From: a virus
IMG/VR virus record: IMGVR_UViG_3300032156_000001
Location: 1 to 64,000 of that record
Length of the DNA: 64,000 bases
Direction: 5' to 3' (one strand)
Shown here: positions 2,502 to 46,760 of the stretch, piece by piece
Layout: each line of letters begins with the position of its first letter
How positions within the stretch are numbered: the stretch's first letter is position 1
Made by a program: the position numbers and the translations under genes
The notes under the pieces: model-generated
What the model was told of the DNA's origin: nothing
The model's input: the letters and a program-made list of their open reading frames with translations, nothing else
Databases searched by the model: none

Positions 2502-4340
2502 TCATTCGGCGATCGGATGCGGCGGCCGCGAAAGGACGACCTCGGAGGCCGTGAGCTTGAAGCCGCCGACGGCCGACAGGTCCGGGTAGCGCTGCTCGGC
2601 GTGCCAGAGCGCCTGGCAGGCGTAGTTGAGCGCGTGCGCGAAGTCGTCGCGCATCTTGGGCTGCCGGCGGATCAGGTAGACGTCCGTGCCGGCGGGCAGC
2701 TCGTGCTTGTCCTCTATGAGTGCCAGCAGGTCGTGCGTCACGTCCTTGGACGACTCGTATTCCGGCAGGAGTATCTGCTTGGTCTTCAGGCTGATGGACA
2801 TGAGCGCCAGCGAGCGCGCCTTGTCCAGCGAGTGGTAGCCCCTCAGCCCGCCCACCGTGGCGGACGGCTTGTTGTACGTCACGAGGTCGCGCGTCGGCAT
2901 GTGCGTGTAGCAGAAGCCGATGGTCCGGTCGACGGGGAGGCCCGCCTGGATCATGATGGTCTCGCGCGCGGAGCCGCTGCCGCCGAAGTCGTGGGCGAAC
3001 CAGTGCGCCCCGATGGCGTTGAAGAACCGCAGCAGCTCCCTCGCCTCCTCCAGGTGGGACAGGCCGGCATGGAACCGGAACGCGAAGCGGCACTCGCACC
3101 GGCCCAGGACGGAGTTGTAGCCGACCATGGCGATGGCGGTGTAGCTGATCTCGTCGAGCCCGCCGCCGCCCCAGTCCACGCCTATCGCGCGCAGGGGGTA
3201 CTTGCGCAGCTCGTTCGCGGCATCGACCAGCTTGTTGACGTTCAGCTTCGACGCGTTCCGAATATCGGTCACCGTGATCAGCTTCACCGACGTGTCGGCA
3301 CTTTCGCCATGCACCTCATTGATGACCTTCTGCTCCGTGTAACCCGGACTTCTTCCCTCGATCTTGTCGAGCAGCTCACCCCATTTCCTTTCATCCTCGT
3401 AATGGAGCGGCATTATCGCCTGCGGTACGTGCCTGCCGTGGAAATCCGGATGCTCCTGGCCCAGAAAATGCTTCCAATGACCTGTTCTCGGATTCAGCGG
3501 CTTGCCGCATTTCCTGCATACTAGCGTCTTCCTGCCGATCATCTTCGCCAGGTCTTCCTTCAGCGTTGGCGTGTTCCAATAACCGCAATCGCAAAGGATC
3601 ACCCACTCGGCCTGCGAACTCTTCTCCCATAACGCTTCCATCCCGTTGTCGAGCGTCTTCGGCGTGCCGCTGTAGAGCGTCAACCCCAATTCGGAATGGC
3701 TCATGCACTCGTTGATCACCGGGAGGAAGTCGTAATCGATGTCCTGGATTTCATCCAGCCCTATCCTATCGGTCGAATAACCCCTTACCCTGTCGACGTC
3801 CAATAGCGCATAGCTGAAGAAGATTACCGAGTTGTTCTTGAACGACCGCTGCAGCACGCGGCGGTCGCATGACTTGTCCACGACGACGTCCCTGATGAGG
3901 GCCTGGTAGATCAGGGGCCGGACGTAGTTGTTGGACAGGCGTGTCACCTGGTCGCGCCTCGGGGTGACGATCAAGGTGCGCAGGAACGGGTGCACTATCG
4001 ACGAGATCACCGCGGCGGCGGACAGGCTGGTCGATTTCGAGACCTGCCGCCCGCACTTCCACAGCGATCTCTTCGGCATCATCCGTTTGAACATCGGCGC
4101 CATGGGAAAGTGGCGTTCCAGGGTATACGGCTTGCCCTGGAGCGTGAACAGGTTGAGGAACGGGAGGAAGGTCTCCGGGTCGGCGTCTATGGCCGCCCGG
4201 ATCCGTTCGATCAGCTTGTCGACGTCGATGGCGGTAGGAACCTGTTCCTGCGCCGGGAGCTCGTCCTGCTCGGCCTCGGCCGAGTCGGACAACCCGGAGG
4301 AACCAGACATGCCGTCGTTAATGCTGCTCGTCCGGTACAT
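2502..4340 (-). CDS. terL: Terminase large subunit
   Basis: DNA-packaging motor: an ATPase that pumps DNA into the prohead and a nuclease that cuts it. 612 residues. The Walker A-like motif is CGRQVSKST (Lys102), matching the GRQxxKST form of phage terminases. Walker B is RIGLDEIQ (Asp196, Glu197). The C-terminal RNase H-like nuclease shows Asp389 (GVDWG), Asp451 (HDFGG) and the DDFAHALNY motif. A CxC...CxxC pair around 250-278 suggests a zinc-ribbon insertion. It is the only confident minus-strand gene. An in-frame ATG at 4310 is an alternative start; neither start has a good ribosome binding site. Confidence 0.93.
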   Translation of the reverse strand: MYRTSSINDGMSGSSGLSDSAEAEQDELPAQEQVPTAIDVDKLIERIRAAIDADPETFLPFLNLFTLQGKPYTLERHFPMAPMFKRMMPKRSLWKCGRQVSKSTSLSAAAVISSIVHPFLRTLIVTPRRDQVTRLSNNYVRPLIYQALIRDVVVDKSCDRRVLQRSFKNNSVIFFSYALLDVDRVRGYSTDRIGLDEIQDIDYDFLPVINECMSHSELGLTLYSGTPKTLDNGMEALWEKSSQAEWVILCDCGYWNTPTLKEDLAKMIGRKTLVCRKCGKPLNPRTGHWKHFLGQEHPDFHGRHVPQAIMPLHYEDERKWGELLDKIEGRSPGYTEQKVINEVHGESADTSVKLITVTDIRNASKLNVNKLVDAANELRKYPLRAIGVDWGGGGLDEISYTAIAMVGYNSVLGRCECRFAFRFHAGLSHLEEARELLRFFNAIGAHWFAHDFGGSGSARETIMIQAGLPVDRTIGFCYTHMPTRDLVTYNKPSATVGGLRGYHSLDKARSLALMSISLKTKQILLPEYESSKDVTHDLLALIEDKHELPAGTDVYLIRRQPKMRDDFAHALNYACQALWHAEQRYPDLSAVGGFKLTASEVVLSRPPHPIAE

Positions 4341-38509: not shown

Positions 38510-40102
38510 ATGAACCGGACGCTGTTCAAGGGGAAGGGGTCCAGGGGCGCGCCGCCGGCCGACACGGTCAACGCGGCGGGCGGCGTGGCGTACAAGATGA
38601 CCGACGAGCAGGCGCTGGCCCAGCTGGCCGTGACGGGCTGCCTGTCGGACGTCTTCTACGCCAACGCGGAGATGCAGCTCGAGCAGGTCCTGGAAGTGGC
38701 GGCGAAGGTGCCCGCGGACTACGAGGCGCGGGTGGCGCTGTACGCCTGGGAGAAGGGCTACATGAAGGACATGCCGGCCCTGCTCTTGGCGCACCTGATG
38801 CGGCGCGACGTCGCGATGGCGAAGCGGGTCTTCCCGCGGATCGTCGTGAATGGCAAGATGCTGCGCAACTTCGTCCAGGTCATCCGCAGCGGGGTGACCG
38901 GGCGGAAGTCGATGGCCACGGCGCCGTCGGCGCTCGTGTCGGCGTACCTGGCCAAGCGGACCCCGCTGGAGCTCCTCAGGGACTCGATCGGCGACAAGCC
39001 CGACTTGGCGGACATCATCAGGCTGGCGCATCCCAAGCCGCCGAACGCGCAGTACCGCGCGTTCTACGCCTGGGCGCTCGGCAAGAAGCTGGACGCCGAG
39101 CAGCAGTCGGCGCTCCCGGAGATCGTTGCGGCGTACGACAAGATGTGCAAGACGGGCGTCCTCGATCTGGACGTAGTCACCAAGCTGCCGATTCAGATGC
39201 TCGGCAGCCTCAAGATGACCGACGACGCCTGGAAGAGGACCGCGGTCAACCTTCCCTGGCACGCGCTGCGGATGAACCTCAACGCGCTGGCCAAGCACGG
39301 CGTCTGGCAGGACAAGGAAGTCCTGCTCCGCTGCTGCGACAAACTGCGGGACCTCGAGACGATCAGGAAGGCGCGGGTCTTCCCGTACCAGCTCCTGATC
39401 GCCTACAAGATGACCGGTACGGACGTCCCGAACGAGCTGAGGGAGGCGCTGCAGGACGCCATGGAAGTGGCCGTCGAGAACGTTCCCGAACTGCCCGGCA
39501 GGACGTGGGTGTTCGTGGACGTCTCAGGCTCGATGCGCTCGCCCGTCACGGGAATACGCAAGGGGGCGACCACCGCGGTCCAGTGCGTGGACGTGGCCGC
39601 GCTGATGGCGGCCGCCATCCTCCGCCGGAACCGGGACTCCAACGTGCTGGCGTTCAACGACTCGGTCGTCGAGGGCTCCGACCGGATTGTGAACCGCCGC
39701 GACTCCGTGATGACGATCGCGGAGAAGCTGGCGGGGCGGCCGTCCGGCGGGACGAACGTCAGCGCGCCCATGCGCCAGCTGGTCGACCGGAACGAGCCGG
39801 CCGACACGGTCGTGTACGTGTCGGACAACCAGTCCTGGATCGATACCGCTGCCCATCAGTACGGGATGCAGGAGGCGACGGAGACCAAGCACCTGTGGCA
39901 GACGCTGAAGAAGCGCCGCCCGAAGGCGCGGATGGTCTGCGTCGACTTGCAGCCGTACCCCGACGCGCAGGCGCCGTCGTGCGCCGACACGCTCAATGTC
40001 GGGGGCTTCTCCGACGCCGTGTTCGACCTCATCGCCCTGTTCGCCAAGGGCGAGCTCACTCCCGACCACTGGGTCGGCGAGATCAGGAAAGTCCAACTGT
40101 GA
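38510..40102 (+). CDS. rsr: TROVE-domain protein (Ro60/Rsr ortholog)
   Basis: 530 residues, ATG after AGGAGGAGCGG. The N-terminal ~320 residues match the TROVE alpha-helical repeat ring (YEARVALYAWEKGYMKDM; ALLLAHLMR; PYQLLIAYKM), which binds Y RNAs and the ends of misfolded small RNAs. The C-terminal vWA domain has a complete metal site D337-V-S339-G-S341 and Thr in SGGTNVSAP. Bacterial Rsr works with Y RNAs in RNA decay and quality control. Y-RNA-like elements lie 1.3 kb downstream. A strong terminator follows. Confidence 0.9.
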   Translation: MNRTLFKGKGSRGAPPADTVNAAGGVAYKMTDEQALAQLAVTGCLSDVFYANAEMQLEQVLEVAAKVPADYEARVALYAWEKGYMKDMPALLLAHLMRRDVAMAKRVFPRIVVNGKMLRNFVQVIRSGVTGRKSMATAPSALVSAYLAKRTPLELLRDSIGDKPDLADIIRLAHPKPPNAQYRAFYAWALGKKLDAEQQSALPEIVAAYDKMCKTGVLDLDVVTKLPIQMLGSLKMTDDAWKRTAVNLPWHALRMNLNALAKHGVWQDKEVLLRCCDKLRDLETIRKARVFPYQLLIAYKMTGTDVPNELREALQDAMEVAVENVPELPGRTWVFVDVSGSMRSPVTGIRKGATTAVQCVDVAALMAAAILRRNRDSNVLAFNDSVVEGSDRIVNRRDSVMTIAEKLAGRPSGGTNVSAPMRQLVDRNEPADTVVYVSDNQSWIDTAAHQYGMQEATETKHLWQTLKKRRPKARMVCVDLQPYPDAQAPSCADTLNVGGFSDAVFDLIALFAKGELTPDHWVGEIRKVQL

Positions 40103-41757: not shown

Positions 41758-42122
41758 GGGGGCGATCATAGAATCGACCCGACGTGAATGGGAGGAGTCG
41801 CGCGCCGAGGTGGCTCGGAGGCCTCGTTAAACACCGGGCAATGCAAACGTGCCAAGAACGACAAGTTCGTTCGCGGGGGCTTCGGCCTCCGCGCTGCTGC
41901 CTAATCGAACAGCGGCTAACCCCGCTCGCGCGCCCGGCCCGGGCGCGCGGGAAGATGACGGGCTGCCGCCCAGCAAGCTGGGCTAGGTCGGTGTACAACC
42001 GATGGAGTCGTGGGAAGCGACACGAGAGGCTTGCCGGTGGGCCGGACACAGACCATCGGACACGCGCGTAGAGGCTCGACCTGAAGCGGACGGGGACCCG
42101 AGTGCGAGTCTCGGCGCCTCCA
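41758..42122 (+). ncRNA. ssrA: tmRNA
   Basis: 365 bases, the usual tmRNA length. Acceptor GGGGGCG (41758-41764) pairs with CGCCTCC (42115-42121), discriminator A42122; CCA is not encoded. The 5' part has GAATCGACCCG like the conserved ATTCGACGG, and a first pseudoknot CCGAGG/CCTCG like that of E. coli. The tag frame is probably 41851-41901 with stop TAA: AKNDKFVRGGFGLRAAA. T-arm CCGAG-TGCGAGT-CTCGG has G where T55 is expected. It rescues stalled ribosomes and tags the nascent protein for proteolysis. The exact resume codon is inferred. Confidence 0.9.
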
Positions 42123-42149
42123 CAAATTTGTGCAGAATCGTAGGTGAAC

Positions 42150-42700: not shown

Positions 42701-42720
42701 CAGAGAAGGAGCCAGTGACA

Positions 42721-42948
42721 ATGTCCATTACCGTCAGGGTCGGCCCCATGGTGAAGGTGTTCGACCAGTTGGCGAACAAGACCGTCATGCAGATCCGACG
42801 CGACCTCGCGGGCCACATGGCCATCCCCGAGGCCTCTCGGGCGACGGTCAACAACGTGGACGTGAGCGAGGACCAGGTCGTCCAGGACTTCCAGACGATC
42901 GAGTTCGTGGTCCAGTCGGGTTCCAAGGGGACCGATTCGGTAGCGTAG
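42721..42948 (+). CDS. Ubiquitin-like beta-grasp protein
   Basis: 75 residues from ATG 42721, nine bases after AAGGAG; GTG 42715 is an alternative. The pattern is a ubiquitin/MoaD/ThiS-type beta-grasp: strands ITVRVG and VKVFDQ, helix TVMQIRRDLAGH, AIPEASRATVNN, and the last strand TIEFVVQSG. The chain ends GSKG-TDSVA, so cleavage after Gly70 would expose a C-terminal glycine for activation; a protease and an E1 are encoded downstream. Resembles the small protein C of plasmid PRTRC systems. Confidence 0.8.
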   Translation: MSITVRVGPMVKVFDQLANKTVMQIRRDLAGHMAIPEASRATVNNVDVSEDQVVQDFQTIEFVVQSGSKGTDSVA

Positions 42949-42971
42949 CGCAAGGGCCGAAGTAGAAGCCT

Positions 42972-43016
42972 GTCAGGCCCGCCGCAAGCTACCGGGCCCG
43001 CTTCGGCGGGCCTGAC
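42972..43016 (+). other. 13-bp inverted repeat between the ubiquitin-like and E2 genes
   Basis: GTCAGGCCCGCCG (42972-42984) pairs perfectly with CGGCGGGCCTGAC (43004-43016) around 19 bases. No T-run follows. It could protect the 3' end of the upstream message or cause partial termination, giving more of the modifier than of the enzymes. Confidence 0.65.
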
Positions 43017-43038
43017 AATTCGATAAAGGAATGAAGGA

Positions 43039-43758
43039 ATGGCGAACACGCCTTCTGCGACCAGGAGACAGATCCGCATAGAGGGAAACCTCGTGGCGGT
43101 GGAGAACGTCCAGGTCGAGCGCTATGTCGGAGTCGACGACTTCATCGACTGCATGACGAAGCGCCGGCCGGTGGCCAGCCCCATACTGCCCAGGAACTGC
43201 GTCCTGTACGCGAACAACACGGCGGACACGTTCCGCCAGCTGTTCGTCATCCAGGAGCCTGCCGGCATACGGCGGATAAGGTACAAGCACGACCGGGCCA
43301 GCGGCCCCGGCGAGGGGATCAACATAGAGGTGTCCATGCCCATGCTGCTGTGGTTCTTCACGTGCACGGACATGTCGCTGGCGTCGCTGAGGTGCGCCGC
43401 CGTGCGGCGCGACCTGTCGGCCGTGGCCGATCCGATGGCCACGCCGCTCCTGAACCCACTGCTGCCGAACTTCCGCGATAACGGCACTGGCGTCATGTGC
43501 ACCGGGCGCATGACGGTCGGCCAGCAGCCGACCCTGGCCAAGACGGTGGACGCGCTGATGCGCGCGATCTGGGATTCCGAGTGGAACCTGGACCTCGGCA
43601 TCGACTACGCGAACACCGGCCTGGGCGACATGCGCGACTGGGCGCACAAGAGCACCGGTCAGCCGGGCTTCCACGAGCGGATCGCGTTTCCGCCGTACGA
43701 GCCCAATCAGCTGGGCGGGATGGTGCGGCGCGCGCTGGCGCAGCGGGACGGTGACTAG
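43039..43758 (+). CDS. E2-like ubiquitin-conjugating enzyme (PRTRC protein B-like)
   Basis: 239 residues. The E2 signature is TPLLNPLLPNFRDNGTGVMC (135-154): like PNxxxxGxxC of E2 enzymes and the NVYxxGxVCxG pattern of PRTRC protein B, placing the acceptor cysteine at Cys154. Upstream strands and MLLWFFTC fit the E2 core. It would receive the ubiquitin-like protein from the E1 and pass it to a target. Located between the modifier gene and the JAB and E1 genes. Confidence 0.78.
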   Translation: MANTPSATRRQIRIEGNLVAVENVQVERYVGVDDFIDCMTKRRPVASPILPRNCVLYANNTADTFRQLFVIQEPAGIRRIRYKHDRASGPGEGINIEVSMPMLLWFFTCTDMSLASLRCAAVRRDLSAVADPMATPLLNPLLPNFRDNGTGVMCTGRMTVGQQPTLAKTVDALMRAIWDSEWNLDLGIDYANTGLGDMRDWAHKSTGQPGFHERIAFPPYEPNQLGGMVRRALAQRDGD

Positions 43759-44120
43759 TGCTGCGCACCAGGGGCGAGCTGCTTACTTTCATCGGCGCCA
43801 AGGAGGACATGCGCCGGAGAGACGAAGCCAAAGCCGAGGCGAAGGCCGGGAATGAGCGGCCGAAGACCGACATATTCGCCGCCCTGGCGCGCGTGCCGCC
43901 CGTGCCGATAACCTCGCTGGAAGGGATAGCCGAGTTCGCGCTCGTCGTGCCCGACCCGGAGACGCTGGCCGAGATGCCGGGCACGCCGGCGCAGGTGCTG
44001 GTGTCGCAGTTCGTGTTCTACGCGAGGAAGTCGTTCCAGCTCGCGGAGGCGATGCGCCGCGACGCCGGCCAGTTCGAGCTGATACGCGCCGCGACGATGC
44101 GCCTGGAGGAGAGACGGTGA
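43758..44120 (+). CDS. Hypothetical protein of the ubiquitin-like cassette
   Basis: 120 residues from GTG 43758, overlapping the E2 stop (TAGTG). Helical, basic N-terminus; FALVVPDPETLAEMPG in the middle. No catalytic motif. Its tight overlap on both sides suggests it belongs to the conjugation system, perhaps as an adaptor, but I recognise no family. Confidence 0.7.
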   Translation: MLRTRGELLTFIGAKEDMRRRDEAKAEAKAGNERPKTDIFAALARVPPVPITSLEGIAEFALVVPDPETLAEMPGTPAQVLVSQFVFYARKSFQLAEAMRRDAGQFELIRAATMRLEERR

Positions 44121-45265
44121 GCGTTCCGATAAAGATCTATGTGATGGAGGAAGGGATGAAGATGCCGGACGACGACCTCTGCTACCTGGTCGGCGCCAAC
44201 GGCATCTTCAAGAGGACGCGATGCCCGCTGTTCGAGATCGTGATCAAGGTGTCGGAGATACCCGGCTTGGCCAACCTGGGTACGTTGGTCAGGCCGACGG
44301 TCGTGAAGATCCCCGAGCCGCTGCTGCGGCAGGTGGAATCGTTCTTCAAGGCCGTGTACGAGAAGCACAAAGCCGAAGCCGTAGTCCTGGTGCTGTACAA
44401 CGAGAAGGAGAAGGCGTGGAAGCTGCTCATACCCGACCAGGAGGTCATGTGCGGCCACGCCGACTACGACCTGAAGAAGGTGGCCATCGAATCCGGCCAC
44501 GTGCTGTTCGGTTCGATGCACAGCCACGGCAGCATGTCGGCCTTCCATTCCGGGACCGACGACAAGGATGAGTGCAAGTTCGACGGCATCCATATCACCA
44601 TCGGCGCGGTTGACGGCACGACGCTCAGCTACGCCGTGCGGTGGTCGATGGCCGGCATGCTCATCAAGGCCGACCTGGAGGACGTCGTCGACCTGCCGAA
44701 GCCGCTCAAGGTGCCGTGCGAGGAGTCGTGGCTGGACCGCGTCAAGACGAGAGGGGCCGCGCAGATCGGGTATCTGGCCCGGCCTGCCGGCCAGGACTTT
44801 CAACGGTGGAGGGAGGACTACGGCGAAGGATGGTCGGAAGAAGCGGCGGCACAGGCACCGGCGTCGCCGGCAGCGTTACCAACCGGGACCGTTACTGTAG
44901 ACCCGCAGGGCGCGGTGAAGGAGGTTTCCGCGGGCCCTTTCGCGGATGGCAAGGCCCTCTTCCAGGCGCGCGATACCGGAGACTCCTCGAATGAGCGGAA
45001 GTTCCCGCTCGCCCCGACGCGGCGCGTGCTGGATCCCAAGCTCCTGGCCGGCGAGCTGCTCGGCCTGGCGGAAGAGGAGAAGGCATATTGGGCCCTGACC
45101 GACGAGGTTCTTGAGGGGCCGCAGGGCTTTGCCACGTCGGAGGACTACCTCACCTATCTGGCCGATTGGCAGGATTATTTGGAGAGCGTGATCGTCACGG
45201 CGCAGGACATGGTCGATTACGAATCCGTCCAATACGCGCGCGCCGGCGCGGGCAAGGGGGGCTGA
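44117..45265 (+). CDS. JAB/JAMM-domain protease (deubiquitinase-like)
   Basis: 382 residues from GTG 44117. JAMM zinc-protease motif H135-S-H137-x7-S145-x2-D148 (SMHSHGSMSAFHSGTD), with Glu87 (AEAVVLVLY) as the likely catalytic acid. Such enzymes cleave isopeptide bonds or trim precursors of ubiquitin-like proteins; here it could cut the modifier after Gly70 and remove it from targets. C-terminal ~150 residues are a Pro/Ala linker and a helical domain. Overlaps the E1 gene (TGATG). Confidence 0.88.
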   Translation: MSVPIKIYVMEEGMKMPDDDLCYLVGANGIFKRTRCPLFEIVIKVSEIPGLANLGTLVRPTVVKIPEPLLRQVESFFKAVYEKHKAEAVVLVLYNEKEKAWKLLIPDQEVMCGHADYDLKKVAIESGHVLFGSMHSHGSMSAFHSGTDDKDECKFDGIHITIGAVDGTTLSYAVRWSMAGMLIKADLEDVVDLPKPLKVPCEESWLDRVKTRGAAQIGYLARPAGQDFQRWREDYGEGWSEEAAAQAPASPAALPTGTVTVDPQGAVKEVSAGPFADGKALFQARDTGDSSNERKFPLAPTRRVLDPKLLAGELLGLAEEEKAYWALTDEVLEGPQGFATSEDYLTYLADWQDYLESVIVTAQDMVDYESVQYARAGAGKGG

Positions 45266-46005
45266 TGAAGCTGTCTTTCGATTCGGTCACGGTTGTGGGC
45301 TGCGGGGGCATCGGCACTTGGCTGGTGCCCCCGCTGGCCCGCATCCTGGCCTGCCAGGGGTTCAAGGGCCCCGTCCACCTGTGGGACGGGGACAAATACG
45401 AGGAGGGGAACGCCAACAGGCAGGAATTCGCCCCGGCGCACCTCGGCGTCAACAAGGCCGAGGCGATGGCCAACGTCGTGCGCGCCAGCCATCCGGTGCT
45501 GGACGTCGTGGACCACAGGGAATTTGTCCTGCCTGACAATGTCGACCAGGCGGTGGCGGAGTATGGCCTGATGGTGACGTGCCTGGACAACAACCCGGCG
45601 CGCGCGCTTATAGAGGGCGCGGCGCGCAAACTGAGGAACGTCTGCGTCCTCAGCGCCGGCAACGAGCTCATGCACGGCAACGTGCACGTCCTGATCCGGC
45701 GGGACGGGAAGGACGCCACGCAGCCACTGCTGCTGCGGCACCCGGAAGTGGGCACGGACAAGAGGGGCGACAGGATCGACGGCTGCGAGCGCCTGATAGA
45801 GGAGGGCGAGACGCAGCTGCTGACGACCAACTTCATGGCGGCCGCGTCGGTGCTGTTCGCCCTGCACCTGCTGTGCACGCACGGCGAACGCGCCGATGGG
45901 CGCAAGCAGGAAACAGTGCCGCAGGAGATCTGGTTCGGCATCTGGGACGGGATCAACGTCGTGCCGGTTTTCAAGGGGAAGGAGGCCGAGCCGTGCCGTT
46001 CGTGA
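45265..46005 (+). CDS. E1-like ThiF/MoeB-family activating enzyme
   Basis: 246 residues from ATG 45265. Nucleotide-binding loop GCGGIGT (12-18), LWDGDKYEEGNANRQEF (39-55) with the conserved Asp and Arg, GVNKAEAMA, and MVTCLDNNPAR (103-113). Cys174 in RIDGCERL, followed by TTNFMAAA, is a good candidate for the thioester cysteine. It would adenylate the C-terminus of the ubiquitin-like protein and load it on the E2. Confidence 0.88.
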   Translation: MKLSFDSVTVVGCGGIGTWLVPPLARILACQGFKGPVHLWDGDKYEEGNANRQEFAPAHLGVNKAEAMANVVRASHPVLDVVDHREFVLPDNVDQAVAEYGLMVTCLDNNPARALIEGAARKLRNVCVLSAGNELMHGNVHVLIRRDGKDATQPLLLRHPEVGTDKRGDRIDGCERLIEEGETQLLTTNFMAAASVLFALHLLCTHGERADGRKQETVPQEIWFGIWDGINVVPVFKGKEAEPCRS

Positions 46006-46760
46006 TGGCTTTCGATGCATTGGAGGCGATAGACGTGGACCACATGCCCGACTTGGACGTGAGCGAAAGTGCCGACGAGTACGATGCCGGTCAGGCTTAC
46101 GGCTGCTGGATCGTGTCGTTCCTGTGCACGCTCGCCGAGGTGATCCGGCGCGACTTCAACGTGTCAGGCTTTCGGACCGATTTCGGCATCGGCGACAGGA
46201 TGCTCCAGCGGATAAGCTCGCCGGCGGTCCGCGCCGCCATCATCGGTTTTGTTAACGAGCACTACCAGGAATGGGTCGACGACCACGTCGTGCCGTACAG
46301 CGAGGACGCGGCGACCGACGACGTGAAGCGCTCGCTATGCGAGGGCTGCGAGGACGGTTGGGAAAAGAAATACGCCGAGTATGACGGCCCGATGGCCGGG
46401 GACGTCGAGCCCGACGAGGAGCTGGTTCTTGCCAGGACCGACAAGGAGCGGCTCGCGATGCTACACCGCAACCTGACTAGGCAGATGGAGCGCGATAAGC
46501 GGCTGCGCGACCAGCGCGCGGCGGAAGCGGTCGTGCTCAGCCGCGAGTTCGTCTGCGACGACCGGTGCGGCCGCTTCTTCGAGGCGCTGTCGGACGCGCT
46601 GACGCACAATACCGTCATCGATACCGAGGCGCTGATACGGATGTGGGACGAGCACTTCCATGGCAACCGCCCGCAAGGAATGCTGCCGGGACTCCACGCG
46701 CCGCCGCTCGTGGTTCCGCGCCGCGACGAAACTTTCGCATTTCGGAACTTGGCATTGTGA
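45993..46760 (+). CDS. Hypothetical protein downstream of the E1
   Basis: 255 residues from GTG 45993, seven bases after AAGGAGG; ATG 46005 is an alternative without a ribosome binding site at proper distance. CEGCEDGW near 112 and CDDRCGRFF near 190 may bind metal; long charged helices in the middle. It overlaps the E1 gene by 13 bases and may be part of the same system. Family unknown. Confidence 0.7.
   Translation: MPFVMAFDALEAIDVDHMPDLDVSESADEYDAGQAYGCWIVSFLCTLAEVIRRDFNVSGFRTDFGIGDRMLQRISSPAVRAAIIGFVNEHYQEWVDDHVVPYSEDAATDDVKRSLCEGCEDGWEKKYAEYDGPMAGDVEPDEELVLARTDKERLAMLHRNLTRQMERDKRLRDQRAAEAVVLSREFVCDDRCGRFFEALSDALTHNTVIDTEALIRMWDEHFHGNRPQGMLPGLHAPPLVVPRRDETFAFRNLAL

Follow-up and report, generated by a model that had tools for sequence, protein, structure and literature searches.

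Among described systems, the closest kind to the gene cassette reported here is the plasmid PRTRC operon, type 6d of Iyer et al. 2006 (PMC1779556). The cassette lies in the first 64 kb of a 188-kb virus record (IMG/VR record IMGVR_UViG_3300032156_000001, positions 1 to 64,000); the whole of this stretch of 64,000 nt is referred to as the window. Both systems have a stand-alone ubiquitin-like (Ubl) protein with a C-terminal G-x-K-G, an E2 of family D, a JAB (JAMM) protease and a single-domain ThiF protein, and share the gene order E2–JAB–ThiF; protein C of the Hydrogenophaga plasmid ends in AAGAKG plus a tail. The cassette in the window differs in that it sits in a tailed phage and adds 120-aa and four-cysteine proteins, its JAMM and ThiF proteins score under the curated PRTRC_A and PRTRC_ThiF cut-offs, and the plasmid E1s form their own branch in an E1 tree. 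Judged from its sequence, this phage probably encodes a reversible Ubl conjugation cascade, a reading to which we give a probability of roughly three in four. The features of the locus are as follows.

42721–42948, + strand: Ubl modifier, 75 aa (alternative GTG start at 42715); AlphaFold2 model, with ubiquitin matches in the PDB
42931–42945, + strand: codons for TDSVA after the conserved Gly70, the predicted JAMM trimming site, with cleavage suggested by the alignment of relatives
42972–43016, + strand: strong RNA hairpin between the modifier and E2 genes, a candidate attenuator (minimum free energy −39.7 kcal/mol, z −2.8)
43039–43758, + strand: E2-like conjugating enzyme, 239 aa, with Asn144 and Cys154; relatives match Prok-E2_D, and it aligns to PRTRC_B
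43758–44120, + strand: 120-aa accessory protein, with a weak family alignment and no family match
44117–45265, + strand: JAMM/JAB metalloprotease, 382 aa, with Glu87, His135, His137, Ser145 and Asp148; PF14464 above cut-off
45265–46005, + strand: ThiF-type E1, 246 aa, with a single adenylation domain (GxGGxG, DxD, R, K, Asp108 and candidate Cys174)
45993–46760, + strand: four-cysteine protein (Cys116, 119, 188 and 192), overlapping the E1 gene by 13 bases

Gene junctions from E2 onward overlap by 1–13 bases. The preliminary description had placed five tightly packed genes at 42721–46005; all five open reading frames (ORFs) are in place, but this boundary is one gene short, and with the coupled four-cysteine gene (45993–46760) the operon reaches 46760. 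The parts expected of a Ubl cascade, namely a modifier, an E1 with ATP-binding residues and a cysteine, an E2 with its cysteine and a JAMM protein, are all present, and this assignment is well supported at the level of sequence. In about 70 distinct phage loci, counted after removal of identical sequences, the catalytic signatures are kept in essentially all, though identity is often just 15–30 %. Asn144 and Cys154 of the E2, the latter in the PNF...GVMC motif, are each kept in 69/69 sequences, the E1 cysteine (Cys174) in 70/70 and the JAMM motif residues in 73/73. The conservation of both cysteines is therefore not due to chance, and the earlier claim that the catalytic signatures are present holds across the phage homologues.

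The JAMM protein passes the Pfam Prok-JAB model PF14464 (27.8 bits, cut-off 25), and its homology to PRTRC_A is clear (TIGR03735, 62.1 bits, 5e-17), with the score under the curated cut-off of 101.8. Similarly, the E1 passes Pfam ThiF (PF00899, 2.8e-22) and matches PRTRC_ThiF (TIGR03736) at 47 bits and 1.9e-12, under a curated cut-off of 144.75. The window E2 has no match of its own to Pfam, NCBIfam or PHROG models, whereas 28 of 36 aligned relatives match Prok-E2_D (PF14460; best 9e-15). Profile alignment (hhalign) of the E2 family with PRTRC protein B of the Hydrogenophaga plasmid gives an E value of 1e-6 with the cysteines aligned; together with the shared gene order and the Ubl C-terminal motif, this bears out the likeness to PRTRC loci that had been proposed. 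In most relatives the asparagine lies eight residues before the cysteine, the arrangement of the HPN...C motif of eukaryotic E2s, and the window E2 has two extra residues between them. Of the other PRTRC proteins, protein C is matched by one relative of the modifier (locus L078, 1.1e-8 to TIGR03738) and not by the window Ubl. Searches of the whole 188 kb for the ParB-like, E and F partners were negative, with no positive control for the E and F models, and PRTRC_F shows no profile similarity to the neighbouring genes.

The modifier has no match on its own to Pfam, NCBIfam or PHROG models. Its AlphaFold2 model is confident (predicted local distance difference test score, pLDDT, 89.4), and the top PDB matches of the model are nearly all ubiquitin (E 2e-4, template modelling score 0.6–0.7). 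A beta-grasp body is followed by a C-terminal ...EFVVQSGSKG and then TDSVA, over which the model is disordered. The KG is invariant across 26 aligned relatives; relatives have G-x-K-G at the C-terminus, and the alignment and ORF list indicate that most end exactly there or carry a short variable tail. Two or more tandem modifier copies are found in 11 of 49 distinct viral ORFs, with three copies in Vibrio phage D69 and four in Bacillus phage KLEB27-3. Such tails and tandem copies call for proteolysis to free the glycine, in keeping with the presence of the JAMM gene.

In 26 of 29 modifier-first loci, the modifier stop is followed within 110 bases by a terminator-like hairpin that has a T-rich run. 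By the same criterion such a hairpin follows E2 in 3/47, JAMM in 11/48 and E1 in 19/65 cases, and occurs in 107/2240 random stretches. A hairpin at this position would limit read-through, and a tag that is consumed should be in excess; it may therefore act as an attenuator, by which the modifier would be more abundant than the enzymes.

The genes, catalytic residues, gene order, recurrence, lineage linkage and hairpin position are read from the sequence, and from them we infer every biochemical step and the regulation of a possible pathway. The modifier would be made in excess, with the hairpin after its gene limiting read-through into the enzyme genes. The JAMM protease would trim the residues past Gly70, or cut the tandem copies of relatives, to expose the C-terminal glycine. 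The E1, with ATP, would adenylate this glycine and take the modifier onto Cys174; the E2 would then accept it on Cys154 and, with Asn144, pass it to an amine of a target protein; the 120-aa and four-cysteine proteins may guide this transfer. The JAMM protease could also take the tag off. A weakly aligned counterpart of the 120-aa protein, which has no family match in Pfam, NCBIfam or PHROG, occupies the same place in loci L014, L021, L042, L057 and L099. Homologues of the four-cysteine protein, a candidate zinc-binding accessory or substrate adapter, occupy its place in L021 and L014, and the four cysteines are invariant in the three sequences. An AAA_2 search for a phage-encoded unfoldase able to degrade tagged proteins found none.

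The preliminary description placed the whole set in a phage, and the sequence evidence for this is good. The window encodes a GpA-type terminase (2502–4340, minus strand), a DNA polymerase and a DnaB helicase; terminase models phrog_2 and Terminase_6N are negative because the terminase is of the GpA type. Further along the record are RNA polymerase beta (record position 128346–130190) and a major capsid protein (MCP; record position 141802–142731) related to that of Salmonella phage Arash; colinearity with that phage covers the capsid gene and several more structural or RNA polymerase genes. A plasmid origin of the contig was rejected, as the terminase, MCP and Arash-colinear structural genes are those of a tailed phage. 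Nor is the set confined to this record. A search with a JAMM family alignment recovered at least 141 IMG/VR viral contigs (80 were kept) and 55 loci in genome collections, and almost all viral loci have E2–JAMM–E1 in one order on one strand, with a modifier nearby. Homologous cassettes are also present in cultured Salmonella, Vibrio and Bacillus phages. A family alignment was required because the proteins are too diverged for single-sequence scans of viral contigs with the window E2 and E1, which gave no match.

The cassette is tied to a capsid-defined lineage. Among 50,697 phage records, the window capsid type is restricted to four, Arash and three from Vibrio, every one of which has the cassette. 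In IMG/VR records picked by MCP alone, which include near-duplicates and are thus not all independent, the JAMM gene is present in 16 of 19, and in 13 of the 14 that are at least 160 kb. Capsid distances correlate with those of JAMM, E1 and E2 (r = 0.85; none of 10,000 permutations as high), and the correlation is 0.79–0.86 with the group of the window left out. A relative, G023, has the cassette in a syntenic place, next to the replication block. A quick E1 tree with long branches joins the window to L014 and L021 with a support of 96; these belong to a clade (100) that also takes in cassettes from other large viral contigs. Since many large relatives possess such a set and pass it on, protein tagging seems to be a built-in part of their life and not a stray gene pick-up. 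A fuller picture is offered tentatively, at somewhat below even odds: Ubl conjugation would belong to the inherited core functions of a widespread tailed-phage lineage of ~165–190 kb, and occur separately in other large phages, with the modifier kept in excess by the conserved attenuator and tagging serving an essential step of their own cycle.

The cassettes of Arash, Vibrio phages D69, D181 and D148 and Bacillus phage KLEB27-3 have the same E2–JAB–ThiF order, with an upstream Ubl ending in TGTKG or GVKG; the products are annotated as hypothetical, structural, ThiF or PRTRC_A domain proteins. The capsid type of the window recurs in Arash and the Vibrio phages, and Arash also has the further colinear structural genes. 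These cassettes differ in that their E1 falls in another clade, and in Arash and D69 the stretch from Ubl to E2 holds a protein of 230–320 aa and a small one, in place of the 120-aa protein that follows E2 in the window. The likely Arash modifier ORF (L003:107-307) ends in TGTKG. In D69, the annotated start of the ThiF gene (L002:5839-6819) drops the ATP-binding part; the frame is open upstream of that start, with a possible non-ATG start after AGGAG.

In Arash, whose E1, JAMM and E2 are 246–248 in GenBank numbering, the virion proteome table lists Gp246, 247, 248, 249 and 251 among 116 purified-particle proteins (PMC10585845). This is a hint that the enzymes are made, and not proof that they are virion parts.

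Several points weigh against this interpretation. A list of 116 proteins makes carry-over likely in the Arash proteome; the structural labels of the Arash paper and GenBank differ, with a numbering mismatch, and GenBank gp251c of Arash is annotated in another frame over the same bases as the modifier ORF. The hairpin of the window itself is a strong stem without a U-run, whereas relatives have a stem plus U-run. Structure prediction, one of the checks proposed beforehand, gave the modifier the expected fold; the PDB fold search with the window E2 was not significant (best match UBE2D3, E 0.14), and the E2 alignment profile had no match in the PDB. The Arash and D69 E1s fall in a separate all-viral clade (96), apart from the window-type E1, so that the lineage as a whole does not show an unbroken line of vertical descent; a cassette seems to have been retained in it, though with probably at least one exchange. 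Lastly, the E2 is fast-evolving, with 25 % identity to G023 vs 67 % for MCP, and such divergence suits a host-facing target at least as well.

The phage's own proteins in the lytic cycle are slightly favoured as targets, at odds a little short of even, as the core-like inheritance of the cassette speaks for a function within the phage's own cycle. The same chemistry may instead be turned mainly on host defence or regulatory proteins, which would be blocked or redirected. We hold this to be a close second, if less likely than not: few of the genes shared with G023 diverge as fast as the E2, PRTRC-type cassettes travel on mobile plasmids, and rapid E2 divergence and mobile relatives together leave room for host targets. 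Bacteria, moreover, use similar cascades against phages, as in CBASS (PMC10097602) and in Bil (Hor 2024, cited in PMC12660748), which makes counter-use plausible. Counter-defence genes are typically patchy, however, and near-universal presence and co-divergence with MCP are less usual for them; E1 identity to G023 (42 %) is near the median of shared genes (39 %), and no defence-island context was seen. A phage-borne module for superinfection exclusion or defence, tagging the virions of competing phages as Bil does for its bacterial host, is unlikely. The reported disturbance of phage assembly by Bil (Hor 2024, as cited in PMC12660748) would fit such a module, and PADLOC E1–E2 models touch the E1 domain; these matches cover the adenylation part only, however, E2, JAMM and modifier match no PADLOC defence model, and core-like inheritance also argues against it. 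The likeness to Bil (BilABCD) noted beforehand survives as an analogy only. Both comprise a Ubl, E1, E2 and JAMM, but BilD has an inactive plus an active adenylation domain, and the Bil E2 motif CEHH consists of Cys, Glu at +6, His at +8 and His at +13 (PMC11354881). The window E1, of 246 aa, has one ThiF domain, and the window E2 has Val, Gln and Ala at the Glu/His/His places after Cys154. CBASS Cap2/Cap3 and 6A-MBL systems share the E1/E2/JAB chemistry but fuse E2 with E1 (and JAB), whereas the phage cassette has separate genes, and no nucleotidyltransferase or MBL partner was seen with it.

It is still less probable that the modifier is a sulfur carrier of the ThiS/MoaD kind, with a thiocarboxylate-forming E1 and an E2-like protein that does not conjugate. 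Its fold is common to sulfur carriers, and ThiF/MoeB models score best among the NCBIfam matches of the E1; yet the E2 Cys and Asn and the JAMM motif are invariant across ~70 loci, modifier copies occur in tandem, and no sulfur-transfer or cofactor gene was noticed beside the cassette. That the cassette is a decaying or silent plasmid-derived remnant is highly improbable: low sequence identity between homologues, and nothing further, speaks for decay, whereas the overlapping frames are intact and the catalytic residues invariant. In lambda, the tail assembly proteins I and K also pair a phage Ubl-fold protein with an adjoining JAB protein (PMC1779556), but as a tail assembly factor without E1 or E2.

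Those bacterial Ubl cascades whose functions have been tested (Bil, CBASS) act in defence against phages; in the present case, phages would themselves own a full cascade together with a removal enzyme, near-constant in a lineage that includes phages cultured on laboratory-strain Salmonella and on Vibrio. No description of a phage Ubl cascade was found in open papers, subscription papers and some preprints being outside the search, and a survey of 224 jumbo phages has no mention of JAB, ThiF or PRTRC. The cassettes make it testable what PRTRC-type cascades modify and whether bacterial viruses regulate proteins by Ubl tagging, and they bear on the movement of ubiquitin systems among plasmids, phages and cells.

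A tmRNA lies just upstream of the cassette at 41758–42125 (+ strand; Rfam RF00023, 76 bits, 7e-28), and a Ro60/Rsr-like protein with TROVE and vWA domains is encoded at 38510–40102 (+ strand; PF25045 7e-16, phrog_850 2.7e-41). Both were considered as parts of the module and rejected, as the G023 cassette follows the replication block without their 10 kb. A tmRNA scored above the gathering score in 7 of 20 searched cassette-bearing large phage records, not linked to the cassette; its position elsewhere in other records further rules it out. At record position 93726–95051 (L008:9726-11048) there is a transposase-like protein (phrog_4285).

A second layout was seen in about 30 viral loci (L015, L017, L023, L043 and ~25 more), in which the E2 domain is N-terminal in a protein of 800–900 aa, accompanied by JAMM and two ThiF-type genes, in many loci with a modifier lying between these. 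Those large records with this layout that were tested have no Arash-type capsid, and such systems are thus present in more than one lineage of large phages. Three contigs binned as Heimdallarchaeota, Woesearchaeota and Vogelbacteria (L095, L096 and L097) have cassettes that group with the viral ones, and are perhaps viral contigs binned with cells. A related JAMM + ThiF (+ E2) family is present in gut Bacillota (Clostridia, Lachnospiraceae and Oscillospiraceae; L103–L126), and contig MT835919 (L005) belongs to this kind.

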